NCBI GenBank assembly: GCA_031265345.1
Contig: JAISCU010000368.1
Location: 1 to 15,742 of the forward strand
From: Bifidobacteriaceae bacterium
GTDB lineage: Bacteria > Actinomycetota > Actinomycetes > Actinomycetales > WQXJ01
DNA length: 15,742 nucleotides
Direction of reading: 5' to 3'
In this document: in pieces, positions 1-14,372 of the stretch
Position numbering within the stretch: position 1 is the stretch's first letter
How the letters are laid out: every line of letters begins with the position of its first letter
Notes under the pieces: generated by a model
What the model saw: the letters and a program-made list of their open reading frames with translations, nothing else
Told to the model about the DNA's origin: nothing
The model's database searches: none
Position numbers and translations under genes: made by a program

Positions 1-131
1 TGGGTCGCAGCCGGGAAATGATCGGCGCCGAACATGAACACCCCCGACCGGCCCGGCTCCGGGGGCTCGGGCGTTTTGAGGAACAACTCCACGCAATTCG
101 CCGCGAGGGGGCCGTCAACGCCGCGCGTCAC
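1..131 (-). CDS. second cupin-family protein, 5' part only (cut by window edge)
   Basis: This is the start of a further gene in the same operon. A GTG at 131-129 overlaps the TGA of the preceding cupin gene (GTGA, 4 nt shared), so translation is probably coupled. The 43 visible codons contain NCVELFLK, then PGRSGVFMFGADHF. The gene at 128-727 has NCVEMLLR and PGRAGTYIFGQEFI at the same places, so the two are tandem paralogues. The rest, including any metal-binding cupin motif, lies outside the window. Function is unknown. The paralogy is read directly from the sequence; the cupin assignment is carried over from the neighbour. The end coordinate is the window edge, not a stop codon. Confidence 0.75.
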   Translation of the reverse strand, partial: MTRGVDGPLAANCVELFLKTPEPPEPGRSGVFMFGADHFPAAT

Positions 132-727
132 TTCGGGTCCTCGCCAAAGAACCGCCTGTAGGCCTCGATGTCCTCGCCCACGACCTGAGCGATCTTGGCC
201 TCGTCGCCGGTGTAGTCCCAGTCGTTGACGATGTCTGCCGCCGCCTTGGACGGTTGGGTCAGCACCACGAACATAGTCAGATTGCGTCGGAAACGGGTGA
301 TGTAGATCGGCCCGTGGCGCACACCCCGCGGGACGAACACCGCGCGCGGCTGGTCGAACTCGAAGACCGACTCATCCTCGCCCTCGCCCAGATGGAACTC
401 GACATGCGCGCCCAGGTCGGCCAAGTCCTCCGGGTCGCTCCCGGAGAAGATCATCAGCTTGTCGGCGTTCATGTTGTACTTCGGGAACGGGCCGCCCTTA
501 TGCCCGTCGCGCATGGTGTAGACCTTGCGCTCGAAACCGGCCGGGAAGCCGCTCATCATCATGTAGTTGCCGGTGATCGACATTATCTCGGTCAGCACCG
601 GCGTGGCCTCGAAGTACGGCTGGTCGATGAACTCCTGGCCGAAGATGTAAGTCCCGGCGCGTCCCGGCCGCCGCGGCCGGTCCTCCCGCAACAGCATCTC
701 GACGCAGTTCTGGTCATACTTGCCCAT
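128..727 (-). CDS. cupin-domain protein, 199 aa
   Basis: A single-domain beta-barrel cupin is the best reading. The strand pattern from about residue 84 to 158 includes IFSGSDPEDLADLGAHVEF, then VFVPRGVRHGP at 131-140. The latter fits cupin motif 2 (PxGxxH, His138). Motif 1 normally supplies HxH and a Glu. Here the equivalent stretch reads KYNMNADKLMIFSG and lacks both histidines, so metal binding may be altered or lost. His76 and His112 lie nearby. The start is ATG at 727 behind GGGAGGA. It lies 42 bp after the GlcG-like gene and overlaps the next cupin by 4 nt. Substrate and reaction are not known. Operon context suggests an enzyme or binding protein for an intermediate of the locus. Confidence 0.8.
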   Translation of the reverse strand: MGKYDQNCVEMLLREDRPRRPGRAGTYIFGQEFIDQPYFEATPVLTEIMSITGNYMMMSGFPAGFERKVYTMRDGHKGGPFPKYNMNADKLMIFSGSDPEDLADLGAHVEFHLGEGEDESVFEFDQPRAVFVPRGVRHGPIYITRFRRNLTMFVVLTQPSKAAADIVNDWDYTGDEAKIAQVVGEDIEAYRRFFGEDPK

Positions 728-769
728 GGGGTCCTCCCTCTGGTTCGGGCTTCGGTCTCTGGTTGGTGT

Positions 770-1207
770 TCAGCGGGCGCTTGGACTCACGGCCGCTATG
801 GCGGTCAGAGCGATCTCTTGGTCGGCATCCGCCGCCCCGCTCACGCCGACCCCGCCGACGCAATGGCCGTCCAGCCAGATCGGCTGGCCGCCACTGACCG
901 TCACCATGGCGTCCACACCGGCCGCGAGGGTTATGGCGAGCAGATGGTGGTCGTTGCCGTTGTTACCCGCCTTGCTGACTCGTCCGGTGGGGGTCGCGGT
1001 GAACGCCGCGCAGCGCGCCTTGGTCTCCGCGACCCGCACGGTCTGCAGCTCCGCGCCATCGGTCCTCGCCAGCATCGCCACGTGGCCGCCCGCGTCGACC
1101 ACGGCCAGTGAGACCTCGAGTCCGCGGGCGGCGGCATCAGCCAAGCCCGCTGCGATGATTCGCTGGGCGCCCGCCAGGGAGATCTGCGGCGTGTTCTTCG
1201 TGTACAT
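770..1207 (-). CDS. GlcG/HbpS-family (PduO C-terminal-like) protein, 145 aa
   Basis: Full-length member of the small alpha/beta family PF03928 (GlcG, haem-binding HbpS, PduO C-terminal domain). Landmarks are an N-terminal helix with AQRIIAAGLADAAARG, the strand VSLAVVDAGGHVAML (about 32-46), TKARCAAFTATPT (62-74), and the C-terminal GGQPIWLDGHCVGGVGVSGA with its typical VGxxGVSGA ending. Some family members bind haem; others have no known role. None of the usual glycolate oxidase genes (glcDEF) is nearby, so the name GlcG would mislead. It sits between the SDR gene (33-bp gap) and the first cupin gene. The ATG at 1207 follows a weak GAGGCT ribosome site. Family call is firm; biochemical role is open. 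Confidence 0.85.
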   Translation of the reverse strand: MYTKNTPQISLAGAQRIIAAGLADAAARGLEVSLAVVDAGGHVAMLARTDGAELQTVRVAETKARCAAFTATPTGRVSKAGNNGNDHHLLAITLAAGVDAMVTVSGGQPIWLDGHCVGGVGVSGAADADQEIALTAIAAVSPSAR

Positions 1208-1240
1208 AGGAGCCTCGATCAGTCGACTTGGAGATTGGCT

Positions 1241-1978
1241 TCACCAACCGTGTTCCATGCTCCACATTGACCACTCGGTGGTGCGCATCCGCCTGGGCTG
1301 GCCCAGCACCGTGAGGATCTGGAAGGCGACATCCTGGGGCCGTAGGTAGTTGTCGAGGTCCGGGTCGCCCTCGGTCCGTCCAGCGCCCATGGCGAACTCG
1401 GTGTGCGTTCCGGCCGGGCAGACGGCTGTCACCCGGATGCCTTCCGGGCGCAGTTCCTGTTCCCAGGACCTCGCCAGTCCGAGTTGGGCGGCCTTGGTGG
1501 CCGCGTACACGGCCTCGTTCGGCCCTCCCCGGTATCCGGCCACGCTCGCCACTGTCACGACGTCGCCGCCGGCTTTCGCGGCGCGGAACGCCGGGACGGC
1601 GGCCCTGACAGTCCACACGGTGCCCAAGAAGTTGACATCGACCATTCGCGCCAACTCTTCATCCGAGAGGTCGTCGATGAACCCGTAGGCGCCCATCCCG
1701 GCGTTCGCCACGACGGAGTCGAGCTGGCCGAACCGGTCGACTGCGGCTCTGACGAATTCATGGCTGGCTCGCGGATCGGTGACGTCGAGCGCGAACGGGA
1801 GCACCTGGTCCGCGCCAAGCTCGTCCGCTAGCGCGGTGAGCCGGTCCAAGCGGCGGGCGCCGACCGCTACCCTGGCACCCGCTTCGACTAACAGGCGGGC
1901 GGCTTCCTGGCCGATCCCGGAACTGGCTCCGGTGATGGCAACAACTGTCCCTTCCAGCGATCTGGTTTCAGCGGGCAT
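1241..1978 (-). CDS. short-chain dehydrogenase/reductase, 245 aa
   Basis: Classical SDR with a Rossmann fold. The cofactor motif TGASSGIG is at residues 16-23 and NAG at 92-94. The catalytic tetrad is complete: Asn116, Ser145, Tyr158 and Lys162 (YAATK). Arg42-Arg43 after the second strand favours NADP(H) over NAD(H), which is an inference from the known SDR pattern. Length is normal for the family. The start is ATG at 1978 with a strong GAGGAG site that lies inside the end of the upstream hydrolase gene. The two overlap by 11 bp, so translation is probably coupled. It likely oxidises or reduces an alcohol/ketone intermediate of the locus; the substrate cannot be read from sequence. Confidence 0.9.
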   Translation of the reverse strand: MPAETRSLEGTVVAITGASSGIGQEAARLLVEAGARVAVGARRLDRLTALADELGADQVLPFALDVTDPRASHEFVRAAVDRFGQLDSVVANAGMGAYGFIDDLSDEELARMVDVNFLGTVWTVRAAVPAFRAAKAGGDVVTVASVAGYRGGPNEAVYAATKAAQLGLARSWEQELRPEGIRVTAVCPAGTHTEFAMGAGRTEGDPDLDNYLRPQDVAFQILTVLGQPRRMRTTEWSMWSMEHGW

Positions 1979-3770
1979 GTCTTTTCTCCTCAGGGTTGAT
2001 GGTCAAGTGATGGGCTGTTGGCGCCTGTTGGTAGGTGTCGATGATCGCGCCGGTCTGAGGCGATCGGCGGAAGCGTCGCAGGAAGTCCCAGGCCAGTTCC
2101 GGCATCTGCGGCGCGGGCATATGCGGCATGTTCTCCAGCGCGATCAGGCGCAGCCGCAACCGGCCGCGTGAGTCAAGATGGTCCACGAGGTAGACCTCGC
2201 CGCCCATCCGGTACAGGACATCGGTCCGGTCGCCGGGGACGCCGATCGCGCGGGTGGCCAGGTCTGGTCCTATCCGGGCGGCCGCGAACACTTCGCTGGT
2301 CTCGGTCGCATCCCGGTTGACCAGGTCGAACGCGCGCGCCCGTCGCAGCCAACTGTCGATCGCCCGGTCCCACCCGGCCGAGCCGGGCTGATGGGCGGTG
2401 AAGTCGCTCTCGACCTGCCCGGCTATGTTCACCACCGGCGTGTCGAGGGCCGCCATGCACTCGATCTCCGCGTCGGTGACGGGCACCATTTCGTGCGAAT
2501 ACTCAGGCGCTGGCATGCCGTGCGCGTTCCCGAGCGAGGCCCCGGCGGTGACCAGGCCGGGGTGACGGCGCAGGAACGCCATCGCCAGGTGGCCGTTGTG
2601 CGAATGGCCGGTCACATACACCCTTGCGAGGTCGATCGGGTAGATCGTGGCCGCCCGCCGGGTTATGGCAGCCAGGAGGTCGTTGTCCTCGGGCGTTTCC
2701 AACGCGAAGAAGATCGCCATGAGCTCCCCCTGCGCGGCCAGTGTGGTGTAACCGAAGTGGCTGCTCAGGGCGGCGACCGCCTGGAACGGCTGCAGCTTCG
2801 TGACCTCTTGAAACACCAGCATGACCGGCAGGGACCGCGCGCGCAGTTCGCCGACGCGCGCAGGAGCCACGGACACCCATCGCTCGCCCGCCGTCTCGTG
2901 GGTCTGGACCAAGACGCCGCGGTCTTTCCACCAGGCACGGAATGCCGGGTCGTCGGGATCATCGAATTCGTGCTCCATCGCCATGCCCTCGGCCAAGTGC
3001 TGTCCCACGCCGGAATGGATCAACCGGTCCAAGTCGATCCCGCGCGCGTAACGCGGCGCGACAGCGTTCTCGAAGACGTGGCTGACTCTGCTCTGCCAGC
3101 GGCCGGTGATGTCGAGGACCATGCGGCCCGCGAATTCAACAAGCGGTCCCGTCCCGGGTGGAGGGACGAACTGGCCCGTGTCGGCGGTCAGCGGCGTCAC
3201 GTCCAGCAACACCCGTGCGTAATGGACGTGATGCCGCACGGACAGTTCTTGGACCGCATTTGTCCACATATGCGACTCATCGGGACCGTCAGGGGCGACC
3301 ACCGCGATGGCGTGGCCATCGCGGGCCGCCGCGTTCGCGTCCCCAGCCATGGCGTCCACCAAGTCCATGGCCCAGGTCGGACGCGAGTAGTCGCCGTCCG
3401 CCAGCACCATCAGCAGGTCGCGCGGCCGGGGGTCGGCTCTCCGGTCGGCTGGGAGCAGTGCGAACCAGGTGACCTGACCCATTTCATCGCTCACGTACTC
3501 CAAACCGAGGGAGGCCAGCGAATCCACGACGTCGGGGAAAGTCACGGCCTTGGTCTTGACGGTGTAGATACCGTCCGTTCGTCCGGAGTGCCGGGAAACC
3601 GGGCTGCCGACCGGGGAAGTGGGGCGCGCGGATCGATTGGCCGCCATCAGTTCTCGCGCCACTGGCAGCACCGGCGAATAGCGCTCGGCCCAGGCCGCTT
3701 GATCCCACAACCAGAGCTGATCGTAGGCGAACGAACTGGGCCGTGCCCCGGTGCCGGAAGAGTGTTCCAT
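1968..3770 (-). CDS. large alpha/beta hydrolase (PHB-depolymerase/esterase-like C-terminal half), 600 aa
   Basis: The C-terminal half (about 310-570) looks like a polyhydroxybutyrate-depolymerase/CE1-type esterase. VYVTGHSHNGHLAMAFLRRHP places the probable nucleophile at Ser390. His550 in ENMPHMPAPQMPELAWDF fits the catalytic His before a terminal helix. The acid may be Asp456, a tentative choice. The elbow reads G-H-S-H-N-G rather than GxSxG. The first 300 residues form a second region I do not recognise, with another strand/turn series (DLLMVLADGDYSRPTWAMDLVDAM, 118-141), perhaps a degenerate repeat of the fold. No signal peptide is seen, so it is probably cytoplasmic. The ATG at 3770 shares one base with the TGA of the upstream gene (TGATG). 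A GTG one codon earlier is also possible. Confidence 0.75.
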   Translation of the reverse strand: MEHSSGTGARPSSFAYDQLWLWDQAAWAERYSPVLPVARELMAANRSARPTSPVGSPVSRHSGRTDGIYTVKTKAVTFPDVVDSLASLGLEYVSDEMGQVTWFALLPADRRADPRPRDLLMVLADGDYSRPTWAMDLVDAMAGDANAAARDGHAIAVVAPDGPDESHMWTNAVQELSVRHHVHYARVLLDVTPLTADTGQFVPPPGTGPLVEFAGRMVLDITGRWQSRVSHVFENAVAPRYARGIDLDRLIHSGVGQHLAEGMAMEHEFDDPDDPAFRAWWKDRGVLVQTHETAGERWVSVAPARVGELRARSLPVMLVFQEVTKLQPFQAVAALSSHFGYTTLAAQGELMAIFFALETPEDNDLLAAITRRAATIYPIDLARVYVTGHSHNGHLAMAFLRRHPGLVTAGASLGNAHGMPAPEYSHEMVPVTDAEIECMAALDTPVVNIAGQVESDFTAHQPGSAGWDRAIDSWLRRARAFDLVNRDATETSEVFAAARIGPDLATRAIGVPGDRTDVLYRMGGEVYLVDHLDSRGRLRLRLIALENMPHMPAPQMPELAWDFLRRFRRSPQTGAIIDTYQQAPTAHHLTINPEEKRHAR

Positions 3771-4759
3771 CACGCCGCCGCCAGCCCTCCAGCCCCCGTC
3801 GACCCTTCAGCCGCCTCGCGCTCGAACTTGGCGGCGTCATAGACCACGCCGATGTTGCCGGAGTAATGCACCCGGTGGTACTTGCGCGGATTGTTCTTCT
3901 GATACTCGAAGATCGAGTCGGCGGGCGGGTCGGCCGCAATCTCCCCGCCGGCGATCTCCTCGCAGGCCGCGACCACATGGTGCGCTGTCCGGATGGTCTG
4001 CGGCAGCGGGTTGTGCCCCGAGTACAGCGTCACATCGGGTCCCACCAGATCGATGAGCCGACGGACCACTCCGGCGTAGACCGAGAAGCATTCGCCGTAC
4101 CTCAGGGCGGGGGCGTCCGGCGCGATGCCCATGAAAGCCGGCAGCGCCGCCCGGTGTTCCGGGGTGTTGTAGTACAGGTCGAGGTTGTGCACTTGGATCG
4201 CCGGGGAGTTGATCCCGTCGCCGGTGAACACGTAGCCCCCGTCGCGGTCGAAGTAGGCGACCGAACCGTTCGAGTGACCGGGAATGGCGATCACCTCGAT
4301 CCGCACGCCGCCCAGATCGAACACGTGACCGTCATCGATCCATTGGAATTCGGTGCCATCGGAATCCAGCATGTGCTCGCGCCCGTACTCGGTCATCTCA
4401 GGGCTGCCCAACCCGAAGCCGGCGATGTCGTTCATCCGCTTGTCGACCTTGAACGCCTGCGTCAACAGCATCCATTCGTCGCGGCGGCAGCAGTACCTCT
4501 CATCGAAGAGCATGGCGCTTCCCGCGTGATCGATCGAGCCGTGCGTGACTGAGCAGATCATTGGTTTGTCCTTGCCGACCACGGATTCGATGTAGCGACG
4601 CAAGTCTCCTGTCATACCCATTCCCGAATCGATCACCAGCACTCGTTCGGTGCCGACGATCACACCGATCGTGAAGCGGAACTCGTGGGAGTAACCCTCG
4701 GTGAAGACGTAGAGCCGTTCGGACTTTTGGTCATGACTGAAGATGTTCAGGTAACTCAT
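3770..4759 (-). CDS. metallo-beta-lactamase-fold hydrolase with altered zinc motif, 329 aa
   Basis: MBL-fold protein. VLVIDSGMG (40-48) is the strand before the active site, followed by THGSIDHAG (72-80), PGHSNGS (160-166), FTGDG (178-182) and YSGHN (246-250). Expected metal ligands are His73, Asp77, His78, His162, Asp181 and His249. The second His of the canonical HxHxDH is Ser75 here, so one ligand of metal site 1 is missing. The start is ATG at 4759 behind AAGGAG. The longer upstream open frame is a shadow of the permease gene. It overlaps that permease by 4 nt (ATGA) and is coupled to the hydrolase by TGATG. Probable role is hydrolysis of a lactone, ester or thioester. It could also be a non-classical MBL enzyme. 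Confidence 0.85.
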   Translation of the reverse strand: MSYLNIFSHDQKSERLYVFTEGYSHEFRFTIGVIVGTERVLVIDSGMGMTGDLRRYIESVVGKDKPMICSVTHGSIDHAGSAMLFDERYCCRRDEWMLLTQAFKVDKRMNDIAGFGLGSPEMTEYGREHMLDSDGTEFQWIDDGHVFDLGGVRIEVIAIPGHSNGSVAYFDRDGGYVFTGDGINSPAIQVHNLDLYYNTPEHRAALPAFMGIAPDAPALRYGECFSVYAGVVRRLIDLVGPDVTLYSGHNPLPQTIRTAHHVVAACEEIAGGEIAADPPADSIFEYQKNNPRKYHRVHYSGNIGVVYDAAKFEREAAEGSTGAGGLAAA

Positions 4760-5697
4760 GTTGGATTCGCTCCTTGCTTGTTGTCTGGTTGGGGTCGGCG
4801 CTTCGACCGTTTCCGCTTCGGGGCGTCCACGATCCGCGGATTGAGCACGTCGTTGAGCCCGTCGCCGATGAAGTTGACGGCCAGGACCGTGATCATCAGC
4901 GCCATTCCCGGCACGATGACCACGAATGGGGAGGTCGCGATGTATTCGCGTCCAGCAGCGATCATGCCGCCCCAGGACGGCATGGGCTCCGGCACCCCCA
5001 GGCCCAGGAAACTCATGCTCGCTTCGGTCAGGATCATCCCGCCGAACGCCTGGGTAGCCGCGATGATCATGGGCGCGACCACGTTCGGGAGGATCTCTTG
5101 AAAGATGATGCGCCCGGTGGGCAGGCCCGCGACTCGCGCGGCGTTCACGAAATCGTGGTTCCGCACCGATAACACGGTCGCGCGCACCACTCGCGCCATC
5201 ATCATCCAACCGGTCAGCGAAAGGACCACCACCAGGTTGAGGACCCCGCCGCCAATCACCGCGACGATCGCGATGCCGAGCAGCAGGGTCGGTATGGCCA
5301 GGGCCAGATCCGTCAAACGCATCACGACGGCATCGACGATGCCGCCGACATAGCCCGACACGAGCCCCAGGACCAAGCCCACCAGGGTTGTGAGCACGAC
5401 CACCGAAGTGGCGACGAGCAGAGAGATCCGCCCGCCCACGGCCATCCTCGTCAGGATGTCGCGGCCGAGCGCGTCTGTGCCCAGCACGTGTCCGGCGAGG
5501 CCTTCCGAGAACCACATGGGCGGTTGCAGGCGGCTGCCGATGTCCGCGCCGAGCGGGTCGTGGGGTAGGGCGAACGGCAAGAAGGCGCATACCAGCACGG
5601 CCGCCAAGAACGTCAGCGCGCCGACCACGAACAGCTTGCTGCGGCGCATCCTGCGCCACAGATCGCGTCGGCTGAGCGAGCCGGTCGGGTTGGGCAT
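4756..5697 (-). CDS. DppC/OppC-type ABC transporter permease, 313 aa
   Basis: Inner-membrane permease of the peptide/opine/nickel ABC family. After a basic N-terminus and the first membrane helix come the DppC hallmarks PHDPLGAD, HVLGTDALGRDILTRM and the ATPase-coupling EAA loop DFVNAARVAGLPTGRIIF. Several further hydrophobic helices follow, and the tail ends in a basic, probably cytoplasmic stretch (APKRKRSKRRP). The ATG at 5697 shares one base with the TGA of the DppB-type gene (TGATG). The stop overlaps the MBL gene start (ATGA). It pairs with the adjacent permease to form the channel. The ligand need not be a peptide, since this transporter family also carries sugars, opines and other small molecules. 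Confidence 0.93.
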   Translation of the reverse strand: MPNPTGSLSRRDLWRRMRRSKLFVVGALTFLAAVLVCAFLPFALPHDPLGADIGSRLQPPMWFSEGLAGHVLGTDALGRDILTRMAVGGRISLLVATSVVVLTTLVGLVLGLVSGYVGGIVDAVVMRLTDLALAIPTLLLGIAIVAVIGGGVLNLVVVLSLTGWMMMARVVRATVLSVRNHDFVNAARVAGLPTGRIIFQEILPNVVAPMIIAATQAFGGMILTEASMSFLGLGVPEPMPSWGGMIAAGREYIATSPFVVIVPGMALMITVLAVNFIGDGLNDVLNPRIVDAPKRKRSKRRPQPDNKQGANPT

Positions 5698-6617
5698 CAG
5701 TTGAACTCCACCCTCTTGTCCACGAACGTGTAGAGCACGTCGACCAGCAAGTTGGTCGCCAGCATCAGCAGAGCGATCACCAACAGAATCGACTGGACGA
5801 GTTGGAAGTCGCGTCCCGAGATCGCCGCGACGGTCAGCTGGCCGAGGCCCGGGTAGGAGAAGATCTGCTCGATCACCACCGAGCCCGCCAGCAGAATGCC
5901 GAGTTGGGAGCCGGACACTGTGATGATCGGGAGCAGCGCGTTCTTGAAGGCGTAGCGACCGTAGATCCGCGTTCGGCCGATCCCGCGTGCCCGAGCGGCC
6001 GTGATGTACTCCTGGCCGAGCACGTCGATCATTCCCGCCCGCATCATCCGGGTCACCAGCGAGGCGAAGGCGAAGCCCACGCAAATGGACGGCATCACCA
6101 AATGCGCCGGACTGCCGTATCCCTCCGGTGGCAGCCATTTCAACCAGACGCTGAAGATCATTATCAGCAACATGCACAGCCACACCGGCGACATAGCCTG
6201 GCCGAGCAGCGCGAAGCCGAGGGCGAAGAAGTCGCTGGCGGACCCGCGCCGAACGCCCGCGACCATCCCCAGCGGCAGCGCCACGAGCAGCGCCAGAGCC
6301 ACACCGAGGCCGGTGATGATCGCAGTTTTGCCGAGCCTGGGAAAGATCAACTGGGTGTTGTCCATCCGGAAGGTGTACGAATAGCCCAAGTCGCCGTGGA
6401 GCAAGCCTTTGACGTACAGCCAAAATTGGTAGGCCAACGGTTCGTCCAGGCCCATCCGTTCCCGCATGGCGGCGATCTGTTCAGGCTTGGCCGTGGGCGG
6501 CAGCATCTGCGCGGCCGGGTCGCCAGGCGCGAGTCGCACAAGGAAGAACGCGATCACCGTCACGCCCACGGCGATGAAGACAGTCAAAGCGGCGCGCCGC
6601 AAGATCCTTGTCGCCAT
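5697..6617 (-). CDS. DppB/OppB-type ABC transporter permease, 306 aa
   Basis: Partner permease. It opens with ATRILRRAALTVFIAVGVTVIAFFLVRLAPGDP in the usual DppB order: first helix, then the RLAPGDP motif. It continues with MGLDEPL, DLGYSYT and the coupling loop EYITAARARGIGRTRIY, and ends with a last helix before TFVDKRVEF. I chose ATG at 6617, with GGAAGG just upstream, over an upstream start 19 codons earlier. That extension (GAGGGQAPAP...) is unlike a DppB N-terminus and would run through the hairpin at 6640-6674. It is separated from the binding-protein gene by 78 bp, the widest gap in the transporter part of the operon. Confidence 0.93.
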   Translation of the reverse strand: MATRILRRAALTVFIAVGVTVIAFFLVRLAPGDPAAQMLPPTAKPEQIAAMRERMGLDEPLAYQFWLYVKGLLHGDLGYSYTFRMDNTQLIFPRLGKTAIITGLGVALALLVALPLGMVAGVRRGSASDFFALGFALLGQAMSPVWLCMLLIMIFSVWLKWLPPEGYGSPAHLVMPSICVGFAFASLVTRMMRAGMIDVLGQEYITAARARGIGRTRIYGRYAFKNALLPIITVSGSQLGILLAGSVVIEQIFSYPGLGQLTVAAISGRDFQLVQSILLVIALLMLATNLLVDVLYTFVDKRVEFN

Positions 6618-6639
6618 ATCATCCTTCCGTTTCGATTGG

Positions 6640-6674
6640 GTGGGAGCGGGCGCTTGGCCGCCGCCCGCTCCCAC
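6640..6674 (-). promoter_or_regulatory. intercistronic hairpin after the binding-protein gene
   Basis: A perfect 13-bp inverted repeat (GTGGGAGCGGGCG at 6640-6652, CGCCCGCTCCCAC at 6662-6674) with a 9-nt loop lies 21 bp after the binding-protein stop. No T-run follows on the minus strand, so it is not a classic intrinsic terminator. In many ABC operons such a hairpin protects the upstream mRNA or attenuates read-through, so that binding protein exceeds permease. That role is inferred here. Confidence 0.7.
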
Positions 6675-6695
6675 GGCCTCAGTCGTCGCCTACGG

Positions 6696-8258
6696 TCACT
6701 CGAATGTGACGAGCTTGTAGTTGGCCGAGCCGTCGGCGTACACGGTCAGGTTCTTGACCGCGTTGCGCATGCCGTATTTCGTGATCGGCTGATAGAGGTA
6801 GATGAACGGCGCGAATTCTTCCGCCTCGATGTTGAACACCTTGTTCAGCACGACTTCCCGTTCGGTCCGATCGGCTATCCCCCCGGCGGACACGGCGAGG
6901 TCATGCAGTTCGGCGTTGTCGTAATGCGAACCAAAGATGTCGAACGCGATGATCACCGAGACTTCGACTTGGGGGTCGCCGGCCGTGGCGGCGAACGATC
7001 CCAGGATCAAGTCGAAATCCCCTGCGGAGCGGCGCTCGGTGTAGGCGGCCTGGTCGAGCGGCTCGAGCTGCAGCGTGATTCCGGCTTCTGCGGCCCCGGA
7101 TTGGATCACCTGGGCGACCTCGTCGGCGCGGGGGAAGCTGGAGGCGGTGTAGATCAGGGTCAACGGCGAGCCGTCGTAAGTCGAGGTCGAGACCAGTTGG
7201 GCGGCCTGGCCGGGATCGTGAACGTAGTCGCGCCCAGCCTCGTAGCCCAGGTTGGTGGCCGGGATCGGGTAGTCCGCGACGATCGCCGACCCGGAGAAGA
7301 TCCCGTCGACTATGCCCTGGCGGTCGACGCTCAAGGAGAGCGCCTCGCGCAGGTTCCGGTCGCTGAACGCCTCGTTCTCGCCCGCTTGGACGCCGATGTG
7401 CATGTGGGTGTCCATCTCGACGTCTTGCACGGCGAATTGGCCCGTGTCCAACGCGTCGGCGACGTCGGCGCTGATCTGGGTGGCGATGTCCGCGGTCCCG
7501 GCTTGGAGGGTGGCCGCGCGGGTCGAATCGTCCAGGACCGACTTGTAGACGATTGCGTCGACGTTGGTGGCGTTGTCATCGGTCCAGCCCCACCAATCCT
7601 CGTTCTTGGTGAAGCGGCCCTCGCCGGTCTGCCCGTCGAATGTGTCGACTGCGAAGGCGCCGGTGCCGGACGGTTTGAGGAAGTACCCGTCCGGGTCGGC
7701 CTCGAACGCCGCAGAATCGATTATCGGCACCCGGCCGACTTCATCGAGGAAAGTGGGCATCAGGTTCTTCTGCACAATGACGACCGTGAGGTCGTCCGGG
7801 GTCTCGGCGTGGTCGTAGCCCTCGGCCCAGGCGTCGCGACCGGTCAACGACTCGTCATCGCGGATGCGATCGAAGGTCGCTGCCACGTCGGCGGATGTGA
7901 AGGGGTTGCCGCTGGAGAAGGTCACTGACTCGCGAAGGGTGAAAGTCCATCTAATGCCGTCCTCGGACGCTTCCCAGGCCGTGGCCAGCCCCGGCTCGTA
8001 GTTCTGATGGTGGTCGCTGGTCACGAGCGGGTCGCCCCAGAGGTTACCGGTGTCGTCTCCGCCGAAGCCGAAGTTGGTGAATCGGTCGAGAGTCTTCTGA
8101 ACGTCGGCGTTCGAGGCGATGGTGAGGACGTTCGAACTCGTCTCGCCGTTCTTTGGGTCTTCTTGCTCGTTTGCGCCATCCCCATTCTGGGAGCAGGCCG
8201 CGATGGACAGGGCCAAGGCCGCGGCAGCCGCAATCGCGATACTGCGTCGGATGTTCAT
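6696..8258 (-). CDS. ABC substrate-binding lipoprotein, family 5 (DppA/OppA type), 520 aa
   Basis: Extracytoplasmic ligand receptor for the transporter. The N-terminus has basic residues (NIRR), an alanine-rich hydrophobic core and a lipobox IAAC with Cys22 as the lipidation site. A Ser/Asp/Glu-rich linker follows. SBP family 5 features are YEPGLATAWEASEDGIRWTFTLRE, TSADVAATFDRI, the GTGAF segment, and RNLREALSLSVDRQGIVDGIF. Length is normal. The ATG at 8258 overlaps the ATPase stop by 4 nt (ATGA), with GAGGT upstream. Ligand specificity cannot be deduced; members bind peptides, glycosides, opines, nickel complexes and other solutes. Its place beside soluble hydrolases suggests an ester- or lactone-containing small molecule, which is speculative. 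Confidence 0.93.
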   Translation of the reverse strand: MNIRRSIAIAAAAALALSIAACSQNGDGANEQEDPKNGETSSNVLTIASNADVQKTLDRFTNFGFGGDDTGNLWGDPLVTSDHHQNYEPGLATAWEASEDGIRWTFTLRESVTFSSGNPFTSADVAATFDRIRDDESLTGRDAWAEGYDHAETPDDLTVVIVQKNLMPTFLDEVGRVPIIDSAAFEADPDGYFLKPSGTGAFAVDTFDGQTGEGRFTKNEDWWGWTDDNATNVDAIVYKSVLDDSTRAATLQAGTADIATQISADVADALDTGQFAVQDVEMDTHMHIGVQAGENEAFSDRNLREALSLSVDRQGIVDGIFSGSAIVADYPIPATNLGYEAGRDYVHDPGQAAQLVSTSTYDGSPLTLIYTASSFPRADEVAQVIQSGAAEAGITLQLEPLDQAAYTERRSAGDFDLILGSFAATAGDPQVEVSVIIAFDIFGSHYDNAELHDLAVSAGGIADRTEREVVLNKVFNIEAEEFAPFIYLYQPITKYGMRNAVKNLTVYADGSANYKLVTFE

Positions 8259-9970
8259 GGGTACCTCATTTCGTTATCGGATGAACTCTGCTTTTCTTTG
8301 ATTCCTTGAGTGACCGTTATCCGCCGGTGTTCGCGTTGGAGCACCGGGTCCGCGACCGGCACCGCCGCCACAAGGCGACGGGTGTATGGCTCCTCGGGTG
8401 ACCCGAGAACCTGGCCAGTGGGGCCGCGCTCCACCAACCGGCCGCGGCTCATCACCACCACGGAGTCGGCGAAGCTTGAGACCACTGCCAGGTCGTGAGT
8501 GATGAAGAGGCATGCGAACCTGAGCTCGGCGCGCAATTCCGCCAGCAACTCGAGCACCTGGGCCTGGACTGACACATCGAGAGCGCTGGTGGGCTCGTCC
8601 GCGATGAGCAACGAGGGCCGTCGAATCAGGGCGCGCGCGATGCTGACGCGTTGGGACTGGCCACCGGACAGCTCGTGGGGATGCTTTCGCCGGACTGAGG
8701 TCGCGAGTCGTACCGCGTCCAGCAAAACGTCTATGCGGTGCGAAGCCTCAGACGCTGGCAGTCGCTCACCAACGGACAGCGGCGCCGCGATGGCCTCCTC
8801 GACCGTCCGGCGCGGATTGAGGGACCAGTTCGGATCCTGGAAGACGTAGCCGATCGTCGACCGGACTCGGCGCAGGTCCGCCGCCCGCGCGTGGTCGACC
8901 CTCGTCCCCGAGATGGAGACCGAGCCCGACGTCGATCTCTGCAGCCCGGCGATGGTGCGCGCGATAGTCGATTTGCCTGATCCGGATTCGCCCACCACGC
9001 CGAGCGTCTCCATCCGGCCGATGGAGAACGTGACACCGTCGACCGCCAAGAAGGCGCGCCCGAGTCCCTGCTTGAACCGAACCGTCAGCCCGTCGACCTC
9101 GAGCACCGTCGGCTCAGGCGCCGAGGTGCGGTCGGCCGGGGCTCGATCGACCTGAAGCCGCGGGACCACGGATAGCAGATCCTGGGTGTACGGGTCCTGT
9201 GGTCGCGCGAACAGGTCATGAACCTCGGCCGTCTCGACAATCGTGCCATCGTGCATCACCGCGACCCGGTCGGCCAGGTCCGCGACGACCCCCATGTTGT
9301 GCGTGATCAGCAGTATCGCTGTGCCCAGCCGGTCTCGCAGGTCGCGCATCAACGCCAGAATCTCTGCCTGCACGGTCACGTCCAGCGCCGTGGTGGGCTC
9401 ATCCGCGATGATCAGGTCGGGGTTGCAGCTGATGGCCATCGCGATCACCACCCGTTGCTTCTGGCCGCCCGAAAGCTGGTGCGGGTAGTAGCCGATCCGT
9501 TTGCCGGGATCAGGTATCCCGACCAGCGCCAGCAATTCGACGGCCCGCTTGATCGCCTTCTTGCGGCTGCCGCCTTCATGCCGAGCGATCGTGTCGACCA
9601 GTTGCGAGCCGATCGTGAACACCGGGTTGAGCGCGCTGGTCGGCTCTTGGAAGACCATCGCCGCCCGTTTGCCGCGCAACTGTGCCAGTGTTCTGCCATC
9701 CAGGCCGAGGACTTGCGTGCCAGCCAGCCTGACCGAACCGGCGACCTCCGCGTTGGACGGGAGCAAGCCCAGCACGGCCCGTGAGGTGACCGATTTGCCC
9801 GACCCGGATTCGCCGACCAGCGCGAGGATTTCTCCTTGCGACACCGTCAGCGAGGCCTTGCGGACCGCTTCGACGTCACCGTGCGGCAGACGGAACCGGA
9901 CCGTGAGGTCGCGGACTTCGAGGACAACCGACTCGTCGGTCGGCGTGGCCGGAAGTGGGTCCACTGCCAT
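8255..9970 (-). CDS. fused DppD-DppF-type dual ABC ATPase, 571 aa
   Basis: Both ATPase subunits of a peptide-type importer are on one chain. Domain 1 has Walker A GESGSGKS at 53-60, signature LSGGQ at 166-170, Walker B LIIADEP at 186-192 and switch His224. Domain 2 has GESGSGKS at 327-334, LSGGQ at 434-438, Walker B LLIADEP at 454-460 and His492. Each is followed by the oligopeptide-family tail motif (PQDPYTQDLLSVVP; PEEPYTRRLVAAVP). All catalytic motifs look intact, so both sites may hydrolyse ATP. It is the first gene of the operon; ATG 9970 follows GAGGAG. Fused forms are known in Actinobacteria and Proteobacteria. Having the ATPase before the binding protein is less usual than the reverse. 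Confidence 0.95.
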   Translation of the reverse strand: MAVDPLPATPTDESVVLEVRDLTVRFRLPHGDVEAVRKASLTVSQGEILALVGESGSGKSVTSRAVLGLLPSNAEVAGSVRLAGTQVLGLDGRTLAQLRGKRAAMVFQEPTSALNPVFTIGSQLVDTIARHEGGSRKKAIKRAVELLALVGIPDPGKRIGYYPHQLSGGQKQRVVIAMAISCNPDLIIADEPTTALDVTVQAEILALMRDLRDRLGTAILLITHNMGVVADLADRVAVMHDGTIVETAEVHDLFARPQDPYTQDLLSVVPRLQVDRAPADRTSAPEPTVLEVDGLTVRFKQGLGRAFLAVDGVTFSIGRMETLGVVGESGSGKSTIARTIAGLQRSTSGSVSISGTRVDHARAADLRRVRSTIGYVFQDPNWSLNPRRTVEEAIAAPLSVGERLPASEASHRIDVLLDAVRLATSVRRKHPHELSGGQSQRVSIARALIRRPSLLIADEPTSALDVSVQAQVLELLAELRAELRFACLFITHDLAVVSSFADSVVVMSRGRLVERGPTGQVLGSPEEPYTRRLVAAVPVADPVLQREHRRITVTQGIKEKQSSSDNEMRYP

Positions 9971-10042
9971 GTGCCTGCTCCTCGTCGAAATAGCTGTCGG
10001 CTGGACGGGGGCTTTCCCGGCCCGCTGTGTGGCGACGAATCG

Positions 10043-10072
10043 AGGCTAGCTGCGCCGCTAAGGTTCTGTCAA
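10043..10072 (-). promoter_or_regulatory. promoter of the minus-strand catabolic operon
   Basis: On the minus strand a perfect TTGACA (10072-10067) is followed after 18 bp by TAGCCT (10048-10043), which fits the actinobacterial TANNNT -10. The ATPase start codon lies about 70 bp downstream. The candidate operator at 10046-10061 fills most of the spacer and touches the -10. Sequence match only. Confidence 0.6.
10046..10061. promoter_or_regulatory. candidate GntR operator, site 1
   Basis: CTAGCTGCGCCGCTAA is an imperfect palindrome: its inner 14 bp, TAGCTGCGCCGCTA, match their own reverse complement at 12 positions. It lies in the -35/-10 spacer of the operon promoter, a natural place for repression. 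A second copy sits at 10144-10159. Assignment to the adjacent GntR protein is inferred from position and spacing. Confidence 0.5.
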
Positions 10073-10143
10073 GGGGATAAATGAAACGACTCTTGCGGAC
10101 CGTGACGGGCCGCAATACCCCGCGACTCGGCCTAGCGCGTGCC

Positions 10144-10159
10144 CTAGTCGCAGTGCTAA
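10144..10159. promoter_or_regulatory. candidate GntR operator, site 2
   Basis: CTAGTCGCAGTGCTAA shares 11 of 16 bases with site 1, including both outer arms (CTAG...GCTAA). It lies 98 bp away and about 60 bp before the regulator's start codon. It overlaps a possible plus-strand -10 (TAACAT, 10157-10162). A third CTAG begins at 10132, giving CTAG-N8-CTAG over 10132-10147. This could support autoregulation by the GntR protein. Confidence 0.45.
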
Positions 10160-10162
10160 CAT
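10157..10162 (+). promoter_or_regulatory. possible -10 of the regulator/isomerase unit
   Basis: TAACAT fits TANNNT and lies 57 bp before the regulator ATG. No convincing -35 is found 16-19 bp upstream, so this is only a weak candidate. Its overlap with operator site 2 is the main reason to list it. Confidence 0.25.
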
Positions 10163-10218
10163 CCTACCAATGGAGCATTTCTAGCCCCAGTTCCGTTCAT
10201 TCTCGATGGGAGGGTCCT

Positions 10219-11010
10219 ATGGTCACGCGCCCGAGCCTGGCGCAGAGCATCGCCAAGGAGCTCGCCTCCGCGATCTATGTCGGTGAATTCCGCGCGGGGC
10301 AGCGGTTGCCTCCCGAGCGCGCCTTGATGGAGCGCTACTCGGCAGGGCGCAACACTATTCGCGAGGCGGTCCAGTCGCTCGTGGCCCAGGGACTGCTGGA
10401 CGTCAGCCCAGGGAGGGGGACGACCGTCCTCGAGGTCAGCCAGGGGACGCCGTTCGAGCACGCCGACTTCTCCGTGCTCACCGGCAACGCGGCCGTGGAC
10501 GACCTCTATGAGTTTCGCATCCTGCTCGAAGTCGACGCCACGGCGAAGGCCGCGGCTCGGGCGCGGGGCGAGGACATCGCGGAGATCATGGAGGCGCTGC
10601 ATCGTCATGAGCAAGCGGTCGGCGATGGTCCGCCCGGCGTCACCCGGCGGGGCACGGAGTTCCACGCCGCCATCGTGAAAGCCTCGCGCAACACCGCCTA
10701 CATCGCCGCGCTGAAAGCCATGGCCGGGCCGCTGACAGCCGTGCGCGAGCACATCGACGCGGTCCCCGGCGCGATCTCCAGCGGCGCTGCCGACCACCGC
10801 CGTATCGCGGAGCTGATCGCCCACGGCGATGTCGAGGGCGCGAGCGCGGCCATGTTGCTGCATCTGCGGACGGCACAGACGAACCTCGCCAAGGCGCGCG
10901 CCCTCGAAGGAGCCGGGTGCCGACGGGAGCCTGCCGACCCGGAATCCCACCCGGAATCCGGCCCGAATTCTCGCACGACAGGAGAAACAGATGTCCTTGC
11001 AACGCGTTGA
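10219..11010 (+). CDS. GntR-family transcriptional regulator, FadR/FCD type, 263 aa
   Basis: The winged helix-turn-helix spans residues 5-72 and contains GEFRAGQRLPPERALMERY, then RNTIREAVQSLVAQGLLDV and the wing GRGTTV. A helical FCD ligand-binding domain covers about 85-235, with DLYEFRILLEVDA, FHAAIVKAS, DHRRIAEL and LLHLRTA. These supply the Asp and His residues that usually bind a metal with an organic-acid ligand. I chose ATG 10219 behind GGGAGGG; the open frame extends upstream to 10081 but has no coding character there. The low-complexity tail (about 235-263) is not conserved in the family. It is divergent from the catabolic operon and overlaps the next gene by 20 bp. Likely a local repressor released by a ligand or product. 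Confidence 0.92.
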   Translation: MVTRPSLAQSIAKELASAIYVGEFRAGQRLPPERALMERYSAGRNTIREAVQSLVAQGLLDVSPGRGTTVLEVSQGTPFEHADFSVLTGNAAVDDLYEFRILLEVDATAKAAARARGEDIAEIMEALHRHEQAVGDGPPGVTRRGTEFHAAIVKASRNTAYIAALKAMAGPLTAVREHIDAVPGAISSGAADHRRIAELIAHGDVEGASAAMLLHLRTAQTNLAKARALEGAGCRREPADPESHPESGPNSRTTGETDVLATR

Positions 11011-11944
11011 CGAGTGGCGCGAGACGGTGGCCAAGAAGTTCGCCCAACTCAAGGCCGACCATCCCGAGCGGCTGCGGCGGCGGTTGGAACTGTCCTGGTC
11101 GAACTGGGGCTTCGGTCAAGAGCCGCTGGCCGTCTCAGCGGCCCGGCTGGCCCAGGCGGGATTGGGGCGCATCGAGTTGCACGGCAACCACTACGGGCCC
11201 GACCTGGGGTACCGACTGGGCGAGACCAAGCAAATCCTGTCCGACCACGGCCTGCGCGTCTCAGGCATGTGCGGCATGTACTCGGCCGAATCGGAGTTCG
11301 CCTCGACCTCGCACGCGGCCCGGCAGAGGGCGATCGACTACACGCGCCGCGAACTGGATTTCTGCGCCGAGGTCGGAGGAAGCTACCTCCTGATAGTCCC
11401 AGGCGCCGTGGGTCGGTCGGAACCGTACGACGACAACGAGTGGCACCGATCCACACAATCCTTGCGGATAGTCGCGGATCACTTCACGGAGACTGGCGTG
11501 CGAGGCGCGGTCGAACCGATTCGGTCGGCCGAAGTCTCACTGGTGCACACTGTGGATGATGCCGTCCGTTACATCGAGGCGGTGGGCCACCCCGGCGTCC
11601 AACACATCAACGGCGACGTGTACCACATGCAGGTCGAAGAGAAGAATGTCCCGCTGGCGGTGCTGGACGCCGGTGAGAGGCTGGTCAACCTTCACTTGGC
11701 GGACTCGAACCGGCTCGGCCTGGGTCAGGGCTCCCTGGACGTCGACACCTTGATCAAAGCCCTGTATGTGATCGGCCACAATTCTCCTGGGCGCTACGTC
11801 ACCCCGGAACCGCTCGGGCCGGGAGCAGGGCCGTACCCCGCGATGCATTCGCTGCAAGACCCCAAGGCGCTCGACGACTTGGTGTTCGGCACCGTCCCCT
11901 ACTGGCGCGAGCGCGAAGAAGCCGTCCTCGCCGCCAGCGGGTGA
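10991..11944 (+). CDS. sugar isomerase/epimerase-like TIM-barrel protein, 317 aa
   Basis: Xylose-isomerase-like TIM barrel (AP endonuclease 2 superfamily, PF01261). A divalent-metal site is visible in the family order: Glu175 (AVEPI), Asp209 (INGDVYHM), His235 (NLHLADSN) and Glu273 (VTPEP). IELHG at 61-65 marks an early strand. Members epimerise or isomerise keto-sugars and inositol derivatives. The alpha subunits of C-glycoside deglycosidases also belong to this fold, and the WSNWGFG...IELHGNHYGPDLGY region reminds me of them, but no small beta-subunit gene is seen here. ATG 10991 follows AGGAGA and lies inside the end of the regulator gene, so the two are co-transcribed. It probably acts on a sugar-like part of the imported ligand. 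Confidence 0.85.
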   Translation: MSLQRVDEWRETVAKKFAQLKADHPERLRRRLELSWSNWGFGQEPLAVSAARLAQAGLGRIELHGNHYGPDLGYRLGETKQILSDHGLRVSGMCGMYSAESEFASTSHAARQRAIDYTRRELDFCAEVGGSYLLIVPGAVGRSEPYDDNEWHRSTQSLRIVADHFTETGVRGAVEPIRSAEVSLVHTVDDAVRYIEAVGHPGVQHINGDVYHMQVEEKNVPLAVLDAGERLVNLHLADSNRLGLGQGSLDVDTLIKALYVIGHNSPGRYVTPEPLGPGAGPYPAMHSLQDPKALDDLVFGTVPYWREREEAVLAASG

Positions 11945-11951
11945 GCGGTCT

Positions 11952-12085
11952 TCAGCGCCCGATCCCGCCGGTCGCGGCCATGACGCTGATTGCAGGATGA
12001 TCAGCGAGGAGGGCTCTGATGTGCTGGGGTAGGACGTGCTGACGGTCTCGCTGCTGGCGCGCGATCCTTGGGCGAAAGCCGTCAT
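11952..12085 (-). pseudogene. 3' remnant of a VapC-like PIN toxin gene, frameshifted
   Basis: The minus frame ends with HIRALLADHPAISVMAA, close to DIKALLADHPEISVLAT at the end of the intact PIN gene at 13508-13900. Just upstream the match continues in another frame: TVSTSYPS against TILTSDPN. A single missing base near 12021-12028 explains the switch. DNA of 11983-12036 aligns with 13521-13575 with only scattered changes. The catalytic Asp of the TSDP motif has become Tyr. No start codon or N-terminal half is recognisable. It is a dead paralogue of the intact toxin gene. Confidence 0.7.
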
Positions 12086-12459
12086 GTCGGAGCGGCCGCG
12101 GACAAGCAGGTAGATGCCCTCGGCGACCAGGCCGCCCGGATGCGTGCCTGTCGGCGGGGTGGTGTGTCACTGGCCCGCCGTGGCGCGGCTTGGCTCTGCT
12201 GCCGCTGGCAGTTGGGGCCGGGGCAGGAGGGGGCCGCCGATGCCGTGGGTCGGCTGACCTGCGCGAACGCGGCGAACTGGGCGGACGGCATCGGGCGGCG
12301 GGTGGCACAACTCACGGCGGCGCGACCCGGCGGCCGTGCGACGGTGAGTCAGGGACGGAGCCGGGACTGGCGTTGCAAGAAATGTACATGCGATGCGCCA
12401 TTATTGGCGCACCGAACGCAATGGATGCTGACTTCATGCCGACTGCGGCGGGGTGGCGG
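12086..12459. other. gene-free stretch, probable decayed DNA
   Basis: About 370 bp between the PIN-gene scrap and the hipA remnant. Open frames exist on both strands, but their translations are Arg/Pro/Ala-rich, with no domain I recognise and no convincing ribosome sites. It may hold what is left of the N-terminal half of the PIN toxin and its antitoxin. The one clear structure is the palindrome at 12394-12411. Confidence 0.5.
12394..12411. repeat. 18-bp palindrome, possible relic operator
   Basis: TGCGCCA-TTAT-TGGCGCA is a perfect 7-bp inverted repeat around TTAT in an otherwise unstructured stretch. It lies roughly where the promoter of the decayed PIN toxin/antitoxin unit would be expected on the minus strand. 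Too short to be a terminator; an old repressor site is a guess. Confidence 0.35.
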
Positions 12460-13056
12460 TTAGGATTCGGGATCCCCTATGTCGCGGCCTGCCAGAATCC
12501 GTTCGGCGGTGGCCAAGAATCGCTGCCGCAGTCCTGGCGTCGAGCCGCGCGGTGGCGCGACCGTCTCCACCGCTGCGGCGAAAGCCGCGACCATGCTTTC
12601 AAGATGCGTCCTGATAGACCGGCTCGCCAACAGCCCCCAGGAGGAAGCCTCGGATTCCAAGCGTTCCAAGGTGATGCGTCGTTGATCGAACACCCCGTCA
12701 ATCGACAGGGCCAAGTCGTGTCCGATGCGCCCTGGTTGGTGCAGATTCGGTACGCCGTCGTAGAGGTCGGCCAGCCGCGTGCCGCCGGGCTCGTGCAGCA
12801 ATGTGGGTCGAGTGCGCCCGGCCATGGGGCTCTTGCCAGCGGCCGTCAAAACGGGCCAACAGGAGTTTCGGCTGGAAACCAGGGATCATGGACCTCGAGT
12901 CGTCATGCGCCCCGAGGTCGTGCCGGTCGATCGCCTGGCGCAAGCGCCGCCCGATAGCTGCGGGCTTCACGCTCACATACCGGGGCTGGTGTCCAGCTGG
13001 CTCGTCAGGGACGCTGATGGTCACGGCGCCGGCGATGGACGCGCCGAACTCCCCGG
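12460..13056 (-). pseudogene. hipA-like kinase toxin gene, internally deleted and frameshifted
   Basis: Two HipA pieces are joined. The first frame (13056 to about 12800) reads TGEFGASIAGAVTISVPDE, then RSMIPGFQPKLLLARFDGRW and GRAHSTHI, which is the start of the HipA kinase domain (GxQxKxxL, then THI). In the next frame it continues at once with LLHEPGGTRLADLYDGVP and DLALSIDGVFDQRRITLERL, typical of the HipA C-terminus, and stops at 12460. Everything between THI and LLHEPGG is absent, roughly 130-170 residues in other HipA proteins, including the catalytic HGD...KN loop. The usual N-terminal domain of about 90 residues is also missing, because HipA similarity begins right at the HipB stop. 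It cannot be an active kinase. Confidence 0.85.
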
Positions 13057-13302
13057 TCAGCCTTGGCTGCCATCGCGGTCGCCCAGTTCGTAGTGGGCTG
13101 TCAGTTCGATGCCGAGGCTCGCGAGGGTGCGGAACAGCCGCGACTCGTGCAGGGTGCCCCGTCCCAGTTCAAGCGATCGCAGATAATCGCGCGAGAACCC
13201 CAGGCTCTCGGCCAGTTCGGCTTGGGTCAGCCCCCGCGCCTGGCGCGCCGCGCGCACGATGGCGCCCACGTCCCGCAAGCGCCCGATCGTCAAGTCTGTC
13301 AT
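13057..13302 (-). CDS. hipB: HipB-like XRE-family repressor/antitoxin, 81 aa
   Basis: Small Cro/C1-type helix-turn-helix protein. GAIVRAARQARGLTQAELAESLGFSRDYLRSLELGRGT (13-50) is a complete XRE DNA-binding motif, followed by a short tail LFRTLASLGIELTAHYEL as in HipB proteins. I chose ATG 13302 because AGGAGG lies just upstream; an in-frame ATG at 13356 would place translation through the operator. It is directly followed by the hipA remnant, as in hipBA operons. The antitoxin has lost its kinase partner, so today it may serve only as an autorepressor or regulate other targets. Its intact frame hints that it is still selected or that the toxin loss is recent. Confidence 0.85.
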   Translation of the reverse strand: MTDLTIGRLRDVGAIVRAARQARGLTQAELAESLGFSRDYLRSLELGRGTLHESRLFRTLASLGIELTAHYELGDRDGSQG

Positions 13303-13314
13303 CACTCCTCCTGC

Positions 13315-13381
13315 GCGGATATTCCCGCAATGGACAATGCGAGAATATCGCCGCATGGACTAATGCGCGGAAATCTCCGCA
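13315..13381. promoter_or_regulatory. hipB: hipB operator/promoter region with repeated boxes
   Basis: A 32-bp inverted repeat at 13318-13349 has arms GATATTCCCGCAATG and CAATGCGAGAATATC, 13 of 15 paired, around a central GA. A related box follows at 13364-13381, TGCGCGGAAATCTCCGCA. The element CCGCA-TGGAC-AATGCG occurs twice in tandem (from 13325 and 13351). The block sits 13 bp upstream of the hipB start codon and is locally AT-richer. It is best read as the site where HipB represses its own operon; the match to any published HipB consensus is not claimed. Confidence 0.7.
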
Positions 13382-13507
13382 TTCTCAGCGTTCGCGCGAC
13401 TGGCCGGTCTGGCGGCATTCACTTCCACGGCCACATGGCGGCCAGTGGACTCCCCCAGCAGCAGGCCGGATTCCCCGGGGCAACCGGGCGCGCTTTGCGT
13501 CGCGAGT

Positions 13508-13900
13508 TCAGGTTGCCAGGACGCTGATTTCGGGGTGATCGGCGAGCAGGGCTTTGATGTCGTTCGGGTCGGACGTGAGAATTGTGACGGGAGCATCATC
13601 GGACAGGATCGCCGTCGCGCAGACGATTGCGTCCATCGCGTCGCGGTGGCCATGGCGCCGTGCGGAACGGAGCAGATCAGTGGCGGTCAGGGCGACGGCG
13701 CGCGACACGTCGATGACATCCAGACCTGACACGGCCCATCGGATGGCCGCCGGTTTCATGGCCGGGTCGATTCCTTCGACCAAGGTGGCAGCCGAAGTGG
13801 TGACGGACTCGCCGGCGGCTTCCAGTTCTTTGGCCAGCGCCATCACGTCGGGGTCGCGGCGAATCAGCCGAGACAGGCCTTCGGAGTCGAGCACAATCAC
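13508..13900 (-). CDS. VapC-like PIN-domain ribonuclease toxin, 130 aa
   Basis: Full-length PIN domain. The acidic metal-binding set is present: Asp5 (VLDSEG), Glu42 (LVEG), Asp90 in GHRDAMDAIVCATA and Asp111 in LTSDPND. PIN toxins of this kind cleave specific RNAs in a Mg-dependent way when free of antitoxin; the target here is unknown. The start is GTG at 13900, one base after the antitoxin stop and without a clear ribosome site of its own, so translation is probably coupled to the antitoxin. A broken paralogue of its 3' end lies at 11952-12085. The gene symbol vapC would be reasonable, but family numbering is not possible. Confidence 0.88.
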   Translation of the reverse strand: MIVLDSEGLSRLIRRDPDVMALAKELEAAGESVTTSAATLVEGIDPAMKPAAIRWAVSGLDVIDVSRAVALTATDLLRSARRHGHRDAMDAIVCATAILSDDAPVTILTSDPNDIKALLADHPEISVLAT

Positions 13901-13901
13901 G

Positions 13902-14171: not shown

Positions 14172-14178
14172 ACATGAC

Positions 14179-14184
14179 ACGTTA
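14179..14184 (-). promoter_or_regulatory. candidate -10 of the vapBC-like unit (leaderless)
   Basis: TAACGT on the minus strand fits TANNNT and ends 7 nt before the antitoxin ATG, so transcription could begin at or next to the start codon. The surrounding TGATAACGTGTCA is nearly palindromic and could be the antitoxin's own operator. No clear -35 is visible. Confidence 0.4.
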
Positions 14185-14369: not shown

Positions 14370-14372
14370 CCG

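Follow-up and report, generated by a model that had tools for sequence, protein, structure and literature searches.

A recurring importer, esterase and cupin gene set in a Bifidobacteriaceae bacterium, possibly for uptake and cleavage of an acylated sugar conjugate

Which compound might be taken up and broken down by a peptide-type importer whose genes run on into those for two hydrolases, a redox enzyme and a pair of cupins? The question is raised by contig JAISCU010000368.1 of a Bifidobacteriaceae bacterium (assembly GCA_031265345.1), of which positions 1 to 15,742, hereafter the window, were analysed. A sequence-only reading of this DNA had recognised no pathway with such a set, and no description of one was found in the open-access literature.

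Operon layout and importer type

The genes form a head-to-tail run on the minus strand from position 9970 to 1, comprising nine whole genes and the start of a tenth according to the open reading frame list and the sequence. Of the ten-gene operon proposed earlier, the tight same-strand run was confirmed and the tenth gene turned out to be a fragment at the contig end. Six of the nine junctions overlap (by 4, 1, 4, 1, 11 and 4 nt, read from the sequence), as had been stated for most of them at 1-11 nt; the remaining three are gaps of 78, 33 and 42 nt, the first of which shrinks to 21 nt if permease B starts at an upstream GTG (6674). GC content was 64-67% across positions 1-14000. Within 1-12500, a consensus scan found no sigma-70-like site, which is uninformative for a high-GC genome, and four terminator-like sites were found against 6.0 in shuffles; an Rfam search gave no match at the gathering threshold.

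The run opens with a fused two-domain ABC importer ATPase of the DppD+DppF type (8255-9970, minus strand, as are all genes of the run; Pfam ABC_tran and oligo_HPY, two stretches each). It is followed by a family-5 solute-binding lipoprotein (SBP; 6696-8258; PF00496, E 3.5e-68; lipobox-like LSIAAC by eye), permease B of the DppB type (5697-6617; PF00528/PF19300) and permease C of the DppC type (4756-5697; PF00528/PF12911). With SBP_bac_5, two BPD_transp_1 permeases and two ABC_tran domains with oligo_HPY tails all present, a family-5 (Dpp/Opp/Nik) importer is encoded, and the complete peptide-type importer of the earlier reading was upheld, corrected to a single ATPase gene. The Pfam complement of an SBP, two permeases and two ATPase domains is that of Dpp/Opp/Nik-type operons, whereas the ATPase fusion, the overlap of importer with hydrolase genes, and SBP and permease scores below NCBIfam cut-offs set the window apart from them. 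A named specificity (nickel, dipeptide or oligopeptide) was not reached by the SBP and permeases, which stayed under every listed NCBIfam cut-off; they scored highest with nickel and oligopeptide models, the SBP and permease B best with nickel and well under the cut-offs. The fused ATPase, taken as a whole protein, exceeded the cut-offs of the NikD, NikE, CntF and CntD models (nickel and opine types), which is possible because its score sums two domains. The nearest structures of the SBP were a mixture named after peptides, haem, nickel or opines (AapF, GsiB/YliB, HbpA, AgaA and NikA) that gives no hint of a sugar, and the relatives of the SBP name no substrate.

Downstream lie an MBL-fold metallo-hydrolase (3770-4759; PF00753), a predicted 600-aa serine esterase, referred to as the hydrolase (1968-3770; assigned by fold prediction, family alignment and internal duplication), an SDR oxidoreductase (1241-1978; PF00106, E 5.9e-53), an HbpS/GlcG (DUF336) protein (770-1207; PF03928, E 3.1e-25) and the 199-aa cupin-1 (128-727). 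The GTG start of cupin-2, at 131, overlaps the cupin-1 stop; only its N-terminal fragment (1-131) is present, since the contig stops at base 1 and cuts the operon there, leaving genes 3' of cupin-2 unseen. Pfam matches to SBP_bac_5, BPD_transp_1, ABC_tran (twice), adh_short, HbpS-like and Lactamase_B confirmed most of the earlier family calls. The hydrolase and cupin-1 had no Pfam match, so their family calls draw on fold prediction, which was supportive for both.

Divergent from the run, a GntR/FCD protein (10219-11010, plus strand; PF00392, PF07729) is the likely operon regulator. Between the two, a near-perfect 23-bp palindrome (10093-10115; 11-nt inverted repeat, 1-nt spacer) is a candidate GntR operator. 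A xylose-isomerase-like TIM barrel follows the regulator (10991-11944, plus strand; PF01261).

Further along the window, all on the minus strand, are a PIN-domain toxin-like gene (13508-14264) that has a small gene without a Pfam match upstream, in a VapBC toxin-antitoxin layout; an open reading frame (11952-12308) whose C-terminal residues resemble by eye those of the PIN protein at 13508 and which is perhaps a second-copy remnant; a small HTH_3/HTH_31 protein, possibly an antitoxin or an orphan regulator (13057-13356); and a malate synthase gene, open at the contig end (14373-15740).

The hydrolase, MBL-fold and cupin families

The hydrolase consists of a degenerate half-copy (about residues 81-233) and a complete esterase domain (about 283-569), and the two match each other at a profile E of 6e-18, indicating an internal duplication. 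Its predicted fold is that of an alpha/beta-hydrolase of the PHB-depolymerase/CE1-like group, and S390, D443, E454 and H550 (Ser, Asp/Glu and His) are invariant in the 20 aligned rows of the family. On this basis the hydrolase is a PHB-depolymerase/CE1-like serine esterase by prediction. The C-terminal domain shares the fold and the conserved Ser, Asp/Glu and His with known members (9byu, 8daj, feruloyl and acetyl-xylan esterases); it differs from them in its nucleophile elbow, GHSHNG, and in the added N-terminal half-copy. The NCBIfam model NF050058 reached 27.1 bits against a cut-off of 150. No export signal was seen in the window's hydrolase; the Acidobacteriaceae relative has an N-terminal extension that resembles one by eye, so the site of cleavage may differ in that genome. 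Two arrangements were noted in passing. Locus L103 (7925-11628, minus strand) carries two full-length hydrolases one after the other, with importer genes and a long MBL gene close by. In L110 of Diplocloster (9895-11061, minus strand), a shorter esterase homologue adjoins a YdjC deacetylase and an MBL gene, with a carboxylesterase and a GH3-like gene (by eye) also nearby, forming a related but separate cluster.

The MBL protein matched Lactamase_B at 47.4 bits (cut-off 22.7). In place of a complete HxHxDH motif it carries H73-x-S75-x-D77-H78 (H-G-S-I-D-H), with Ser replacing one usual ligand His. A search returned 53 relatives, none of which names a substrate. From 54 rows, 21 were chosen for an alignment; aligned to the window's copy, the position of the second His was Ser or Ala in ten, Asn in one and His in nine of the 20 rows that had a residue there, and the other ligands were kept in all but one cell. 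Tandem proteins some 570 aa long make up six of the 21 rows; their first copy has the canonical motif in all six, and their second copy an altered one in five. Compared with MBL hydrolases of the hydroxyacylglutathione hydrolase/ODP kind, the fold and most metal ligands are alike, whereas the window's branch has Ser or Ala for the second His and some relatives are these tandem proteins.

The predicted model of cupin-1 (pLDDT 91.7) is a cupin barrel, and in fold comparison seed globulins, KduI, Pac13 and oxalate decarboxylase came out level. The only link to the KduI/IolB or PGI sugar isomerases is in the fold: a PDB sequence search with the cupins gave no match at E 1, and a Pfam scan of 44 members (the window's and 43 of 93 matches) gave one stray weak match. 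Cupins are characterised by the metal motif G-x5-HxH-x3,4-E-x6-G (HxH...E). The 44-row alignment has PKY...D instead, and in its place the family conserves H76, K83 and H108-x-E110-x-H112, of which H76, K83 and H112 are invariant, E110 is kept in 43 rows and H108 in 39. The lack of a PDB sequence match and this residue set distinguish the window's cupins from cupin sugar isomerases (KduI, archaeal PGI) and from germin and oxalate decarboxylase. Lachnospiraceae are anaerobes, and an O2-using dioxygenase is unlikely because the family, which lacks the usual metal motif, is found in them; a quercetinase-type ring-cleaving dioxygenase was disfavoured since the organisms carrying the pair are anaerobes. 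More remote cupin relatives, about 364 aa long, were observed in L037 (727-1821, plus strand), whose copy shows a canonical HxH motif by eye, and on contig C226 of G189, where one frame holds two matches; a two-cupin protein may thus be the ancestor of the split pair or the product of its fusion.

Recurrence in other genomes

A protein search with the hydrolase, scoring only the candidates that share most words, returned 11 proteins including the query. A genome scan with the single hydrolase sequence gave no match; searching the genome collection with the hydrolase alignment yielded nine loci, from Lachnospiraceae, two Diplocloster, a Dorea, other Clostridia and an Acidobacteriaceae genome. 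Further genome searches added G551, G1063, G1032 and G1389, giving 13 genomes with the 600-aa hydrolase besides the window's. Neighbours were counted within about 10 kb of it. Importer permeases were present in seven of the 13 (L001, L002, L003, L006, L008, L051 and L103) and absent on the stretch seen in four (L004, L009, L052 and L104); the contigs of L005 and L112 end too early for the importer to be judged. An MBL-fold gene was found in nine, the window's own MBL family in only four of these 13 (L004, L006, L009 and L103) and a second MBL-fold kind in L002, L003, L004, L006, L008, L051 and L104. Cupin genes occurred in six (L002, L003, L051, L052, L104 and L112), paired in L002, L003, L051 and L052, and an MFS transporter likewise in six.

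The Diplocloster gene order is SBP-B-C-ATPase-ATPase-hydrolase-cupin-1-cupin-2-MFS. Relative to the window, identity in Diplocloster is 48-50% for the SBP and 65% for cupin-1, and only 33% for the hydrolase; the SBP of G551 falls within the same 48-50%, and for Diplocloster and G551 permease B is 65% and permease C 59-61% identical. From such identities the module appears to have spread between phyla. A dppB gene lay within 10 kb of the hydrolase in six of 12 genomes against 0.53 expected from 1-18 PF19300 copies per genome, with G1389 left out and the genomes not all independent.

Few genomes carry the full-length hydrolase: one among the 250 of G007's family and three among the 392 of G002's order. 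Strong cupin matches are likewise few (1 of 396 genomes in the phylum of G007, 3 of 397 in the family of G002 and 1 of 391 in the class of G005). All five strong-cupin genomes carry the hydrolase within 10 kb; three of them are starting genomes that had been found through the hydrolase, and G551 and G1389 were found by the cupin alone, with the hydrolase present in both. No relatives of the cupin or the hydrolase were found in viral contigs, and neither matched plasmids.

Several groups of matches were set aside. Weak cupin matches (E 4.5e-13 to 8.5e-4) made up 10 of 11 and 6 of 9 genomes in two search tallies; at the seven loci examined these were judged to be distant cupins, and all were left out of the count. 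Weak hydrolase matches, most of them confined to about residues 360-460 of the profile, were put down to alpha/beta hydrolases in general and likewise left out; the tallies containing them (76 of 250 and 47 of 392 genomes) include one and three full-length relatives, respectively. Shorter homologues (G1084, G1171, G1140, G1094, G555 and a second copy in G002) were kept apart after reading. Linkage through equal source-sequence sizes (such as 295785, 31667, 14932 and 12255) was treated as a hint only, and the size 2807 was common to proteins that cannot all fit.

The core genes thus recur together, rarely and above chance, in a few Clostridia and an acidobacterium, and very probably constitute a real module. 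The check on enzyme-transporter co-occurrence suggested earlier therefore came out in favour of the set, with no sign of its refuting result. The proposed shared unit held for the core and not for the SDR and HbpS genes, which, like the TIM barrel, had no homologue in the 13 hydrolase loci and so are not counted as core. The loci were scanned with a crude gene finder that missed cupin-1 in L002, L003 and L112, as other searches showed, so short genes may escape it.

Possible substrate and route

Since parts of the set recur together, they probably serve the uptake and breakdown of one particular compound. Clues to its nature come from the less constant neighbours. The TIM barrel is nearest to ketose 3-epimerases (D-allulose 3-epimerase 5zfs, E 4.6e-20), has a 3-keto-D-glucoside 4-epimerase among its solved relatives, and stayed below the cut-offs in all four of its NCBIfam matches. 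An araD-like epimerase and a xylulokinase-like FGGY kinase adjoin the Acidobacteriaceae locus, L051 holds an L-rhamnose isomerase, and L001 and L005 hold YdjC deacetylases, each sugar-gene kind occurring in only one or two of the 13 loci. The redox enzyme varies as well, from the SDR of the window to an AKR in L051, L112 and, weakly, L006, and a Gfo/Idh protein in L001. These neighbours and the TIM-barrel relatives are circumstantial evidence for a sugar, and the glycoside-like substrate of the sequence-only reading found no footing beyond sugar genes near some relatives.

The best explanation, held tentatively and at somewhat less than even confidence as a whole, is that an acylated sugar conjugate is imported and then de-esterified inside the cell; that the substrate class is such a conjugate, probably plant-derived, is a possibility of nearly the same weight. 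The binding lipoprotein and the dipeptide-type importer, the latter assigned by family, would carry the intact ester-bearing conjugate inside, where the large serine esterase would cut the ester, its dead N-terminal half-copy probably shaping the pocket. The MBL protein may open a second ester or a lactone. That two hydrolases open an ester or lactone, as first read, fits the esterase and MBL folds; the chemistry and the substrate we infer. The cupin pair might then rearrange the released sugar or keto-sugar without O2, and the TIM-barrel epimerase and the oxidoreductase, whose type differs by lineage (an SDR in the window, an AKR or Gfo/Idh protein in other loci), may also act on the sugar before the product enters central metabolism. 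The divergent GntR/FCD protein would probably sense an intermediate.

Other readings were weighed against the same evidence. Fes hydrolyses catecholate siderophores, and the locus could by similar steps scavenge metal through a metallophore or siderophore, the nickel/opine-type importer taking up a metal-chelate, the esterase freeing the metal and the MFS protein acting in export. The nickel-model preference of the SBP and permease B and the ATPase scores over the NikD, NikE, CntF and CntD cut-offs agree with this, as do below-cut-off matches of the recurring MFS protein, which include exporters of opines and bacillibactin alongside other MFS types, and the handling of iron and haem by Streptomyces HbpS (PMC3754957). 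Yet the SBP and permease scores lie well under curated cut-offs, the ATPase score sums two domains, no biosynthesis genes were recognised in the loci read, where not every neighbour was annotated, and sugar enzymes, a deacetylase and MBL genes would not be expected, which leaves metal scavenging unlikely. Similarly improbable is the inactivation by MBL protein and esterase of a lactone or ester natural product, such as an antibiotic or plant defence compound. The two hydrolases and the MFS transporter of six loci, several of whose best models are efflux types (all below cut-off), would suit detoxification, but this would need no uptake, the importer is a frequent partner, and sugar-type genes stand near some relatives.

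Deglycosylation of plant polyphenol C-glycosides of the DgpABC-like type, with sugar oxidation followed by a two-protein deglycosidase formed by the TIM barrel or the cupin pair, is quite doubtful. In its favour, the window has a TIM barrel, to which the 3-keto-D-glucoside 4-epimerase is related, as well as an oxidoreductase and beta-barrel proteins. DgpABC/DfgABE clusters also occur in gut Lachnospiraceae, some of which carry such pathways (PMC11170127), and this family holds relatives of the window's set too. However, the 28 PDB matches of the TIM barrel are led by ketose epimerases and none is named a C-glycoside deglycosidase; no DgpBC-type name appeared among the Pfam and PDB matches of the window's proteins, compared by match names alone; and no TIM-barrel homologue was seen near the 13 relatives. 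The central gene here encodes an esterase, and the available part of PMC11170127 mentions for that pathway neither an esterase nor a cupin of the window's kind and contains the term 'lactamase' 0 times. Least probable is that an importer operon merely picked up unrelated enzyme genes with no shared pathway: the missing SDR, HbpS and TIM-barrel homologues and the single, weak neighbour match of the regulator (GntR, 3e-8, in L051) would be in keeping with it, but the hydrolase-importer association far above the copy-number expectation and the recurrence of MBL-fold and cupin genes with hydrolase and importer largely refute it for the core.

Going beyond import and de-esterification of a sugar conjugate, the set may possibly define a new catabolic pathway, a suggestion made with some reserve. 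It would be built on two families without a Pfam model, the half-duplicated esterase and a two-gene cupin enzyme, with the hydrolase in at least three phyla (Bacillota, Acidobacteriota and, through Isoptericola, Actinomycetota). In the esterase, an inactive copy of the core would serve as a pseudo-partner within the same molecule. The cupins, through the non-canonical H-x-E-x-H site, would isomerise the released sugar or lactone, or act on it as a lyase, without need of oxygen. The half-duplicated esterase also offers an uncluttered example of a single chain in which a fold is accompanied by its own degenerate partner. In genomes of Clostridia, an acidobacterium and the source bacterium of the window, two protein families that Pfam does not cover are found as companions, often beside a dipeptide-type importer, and this recurring set makes an unknown nutrient testable.
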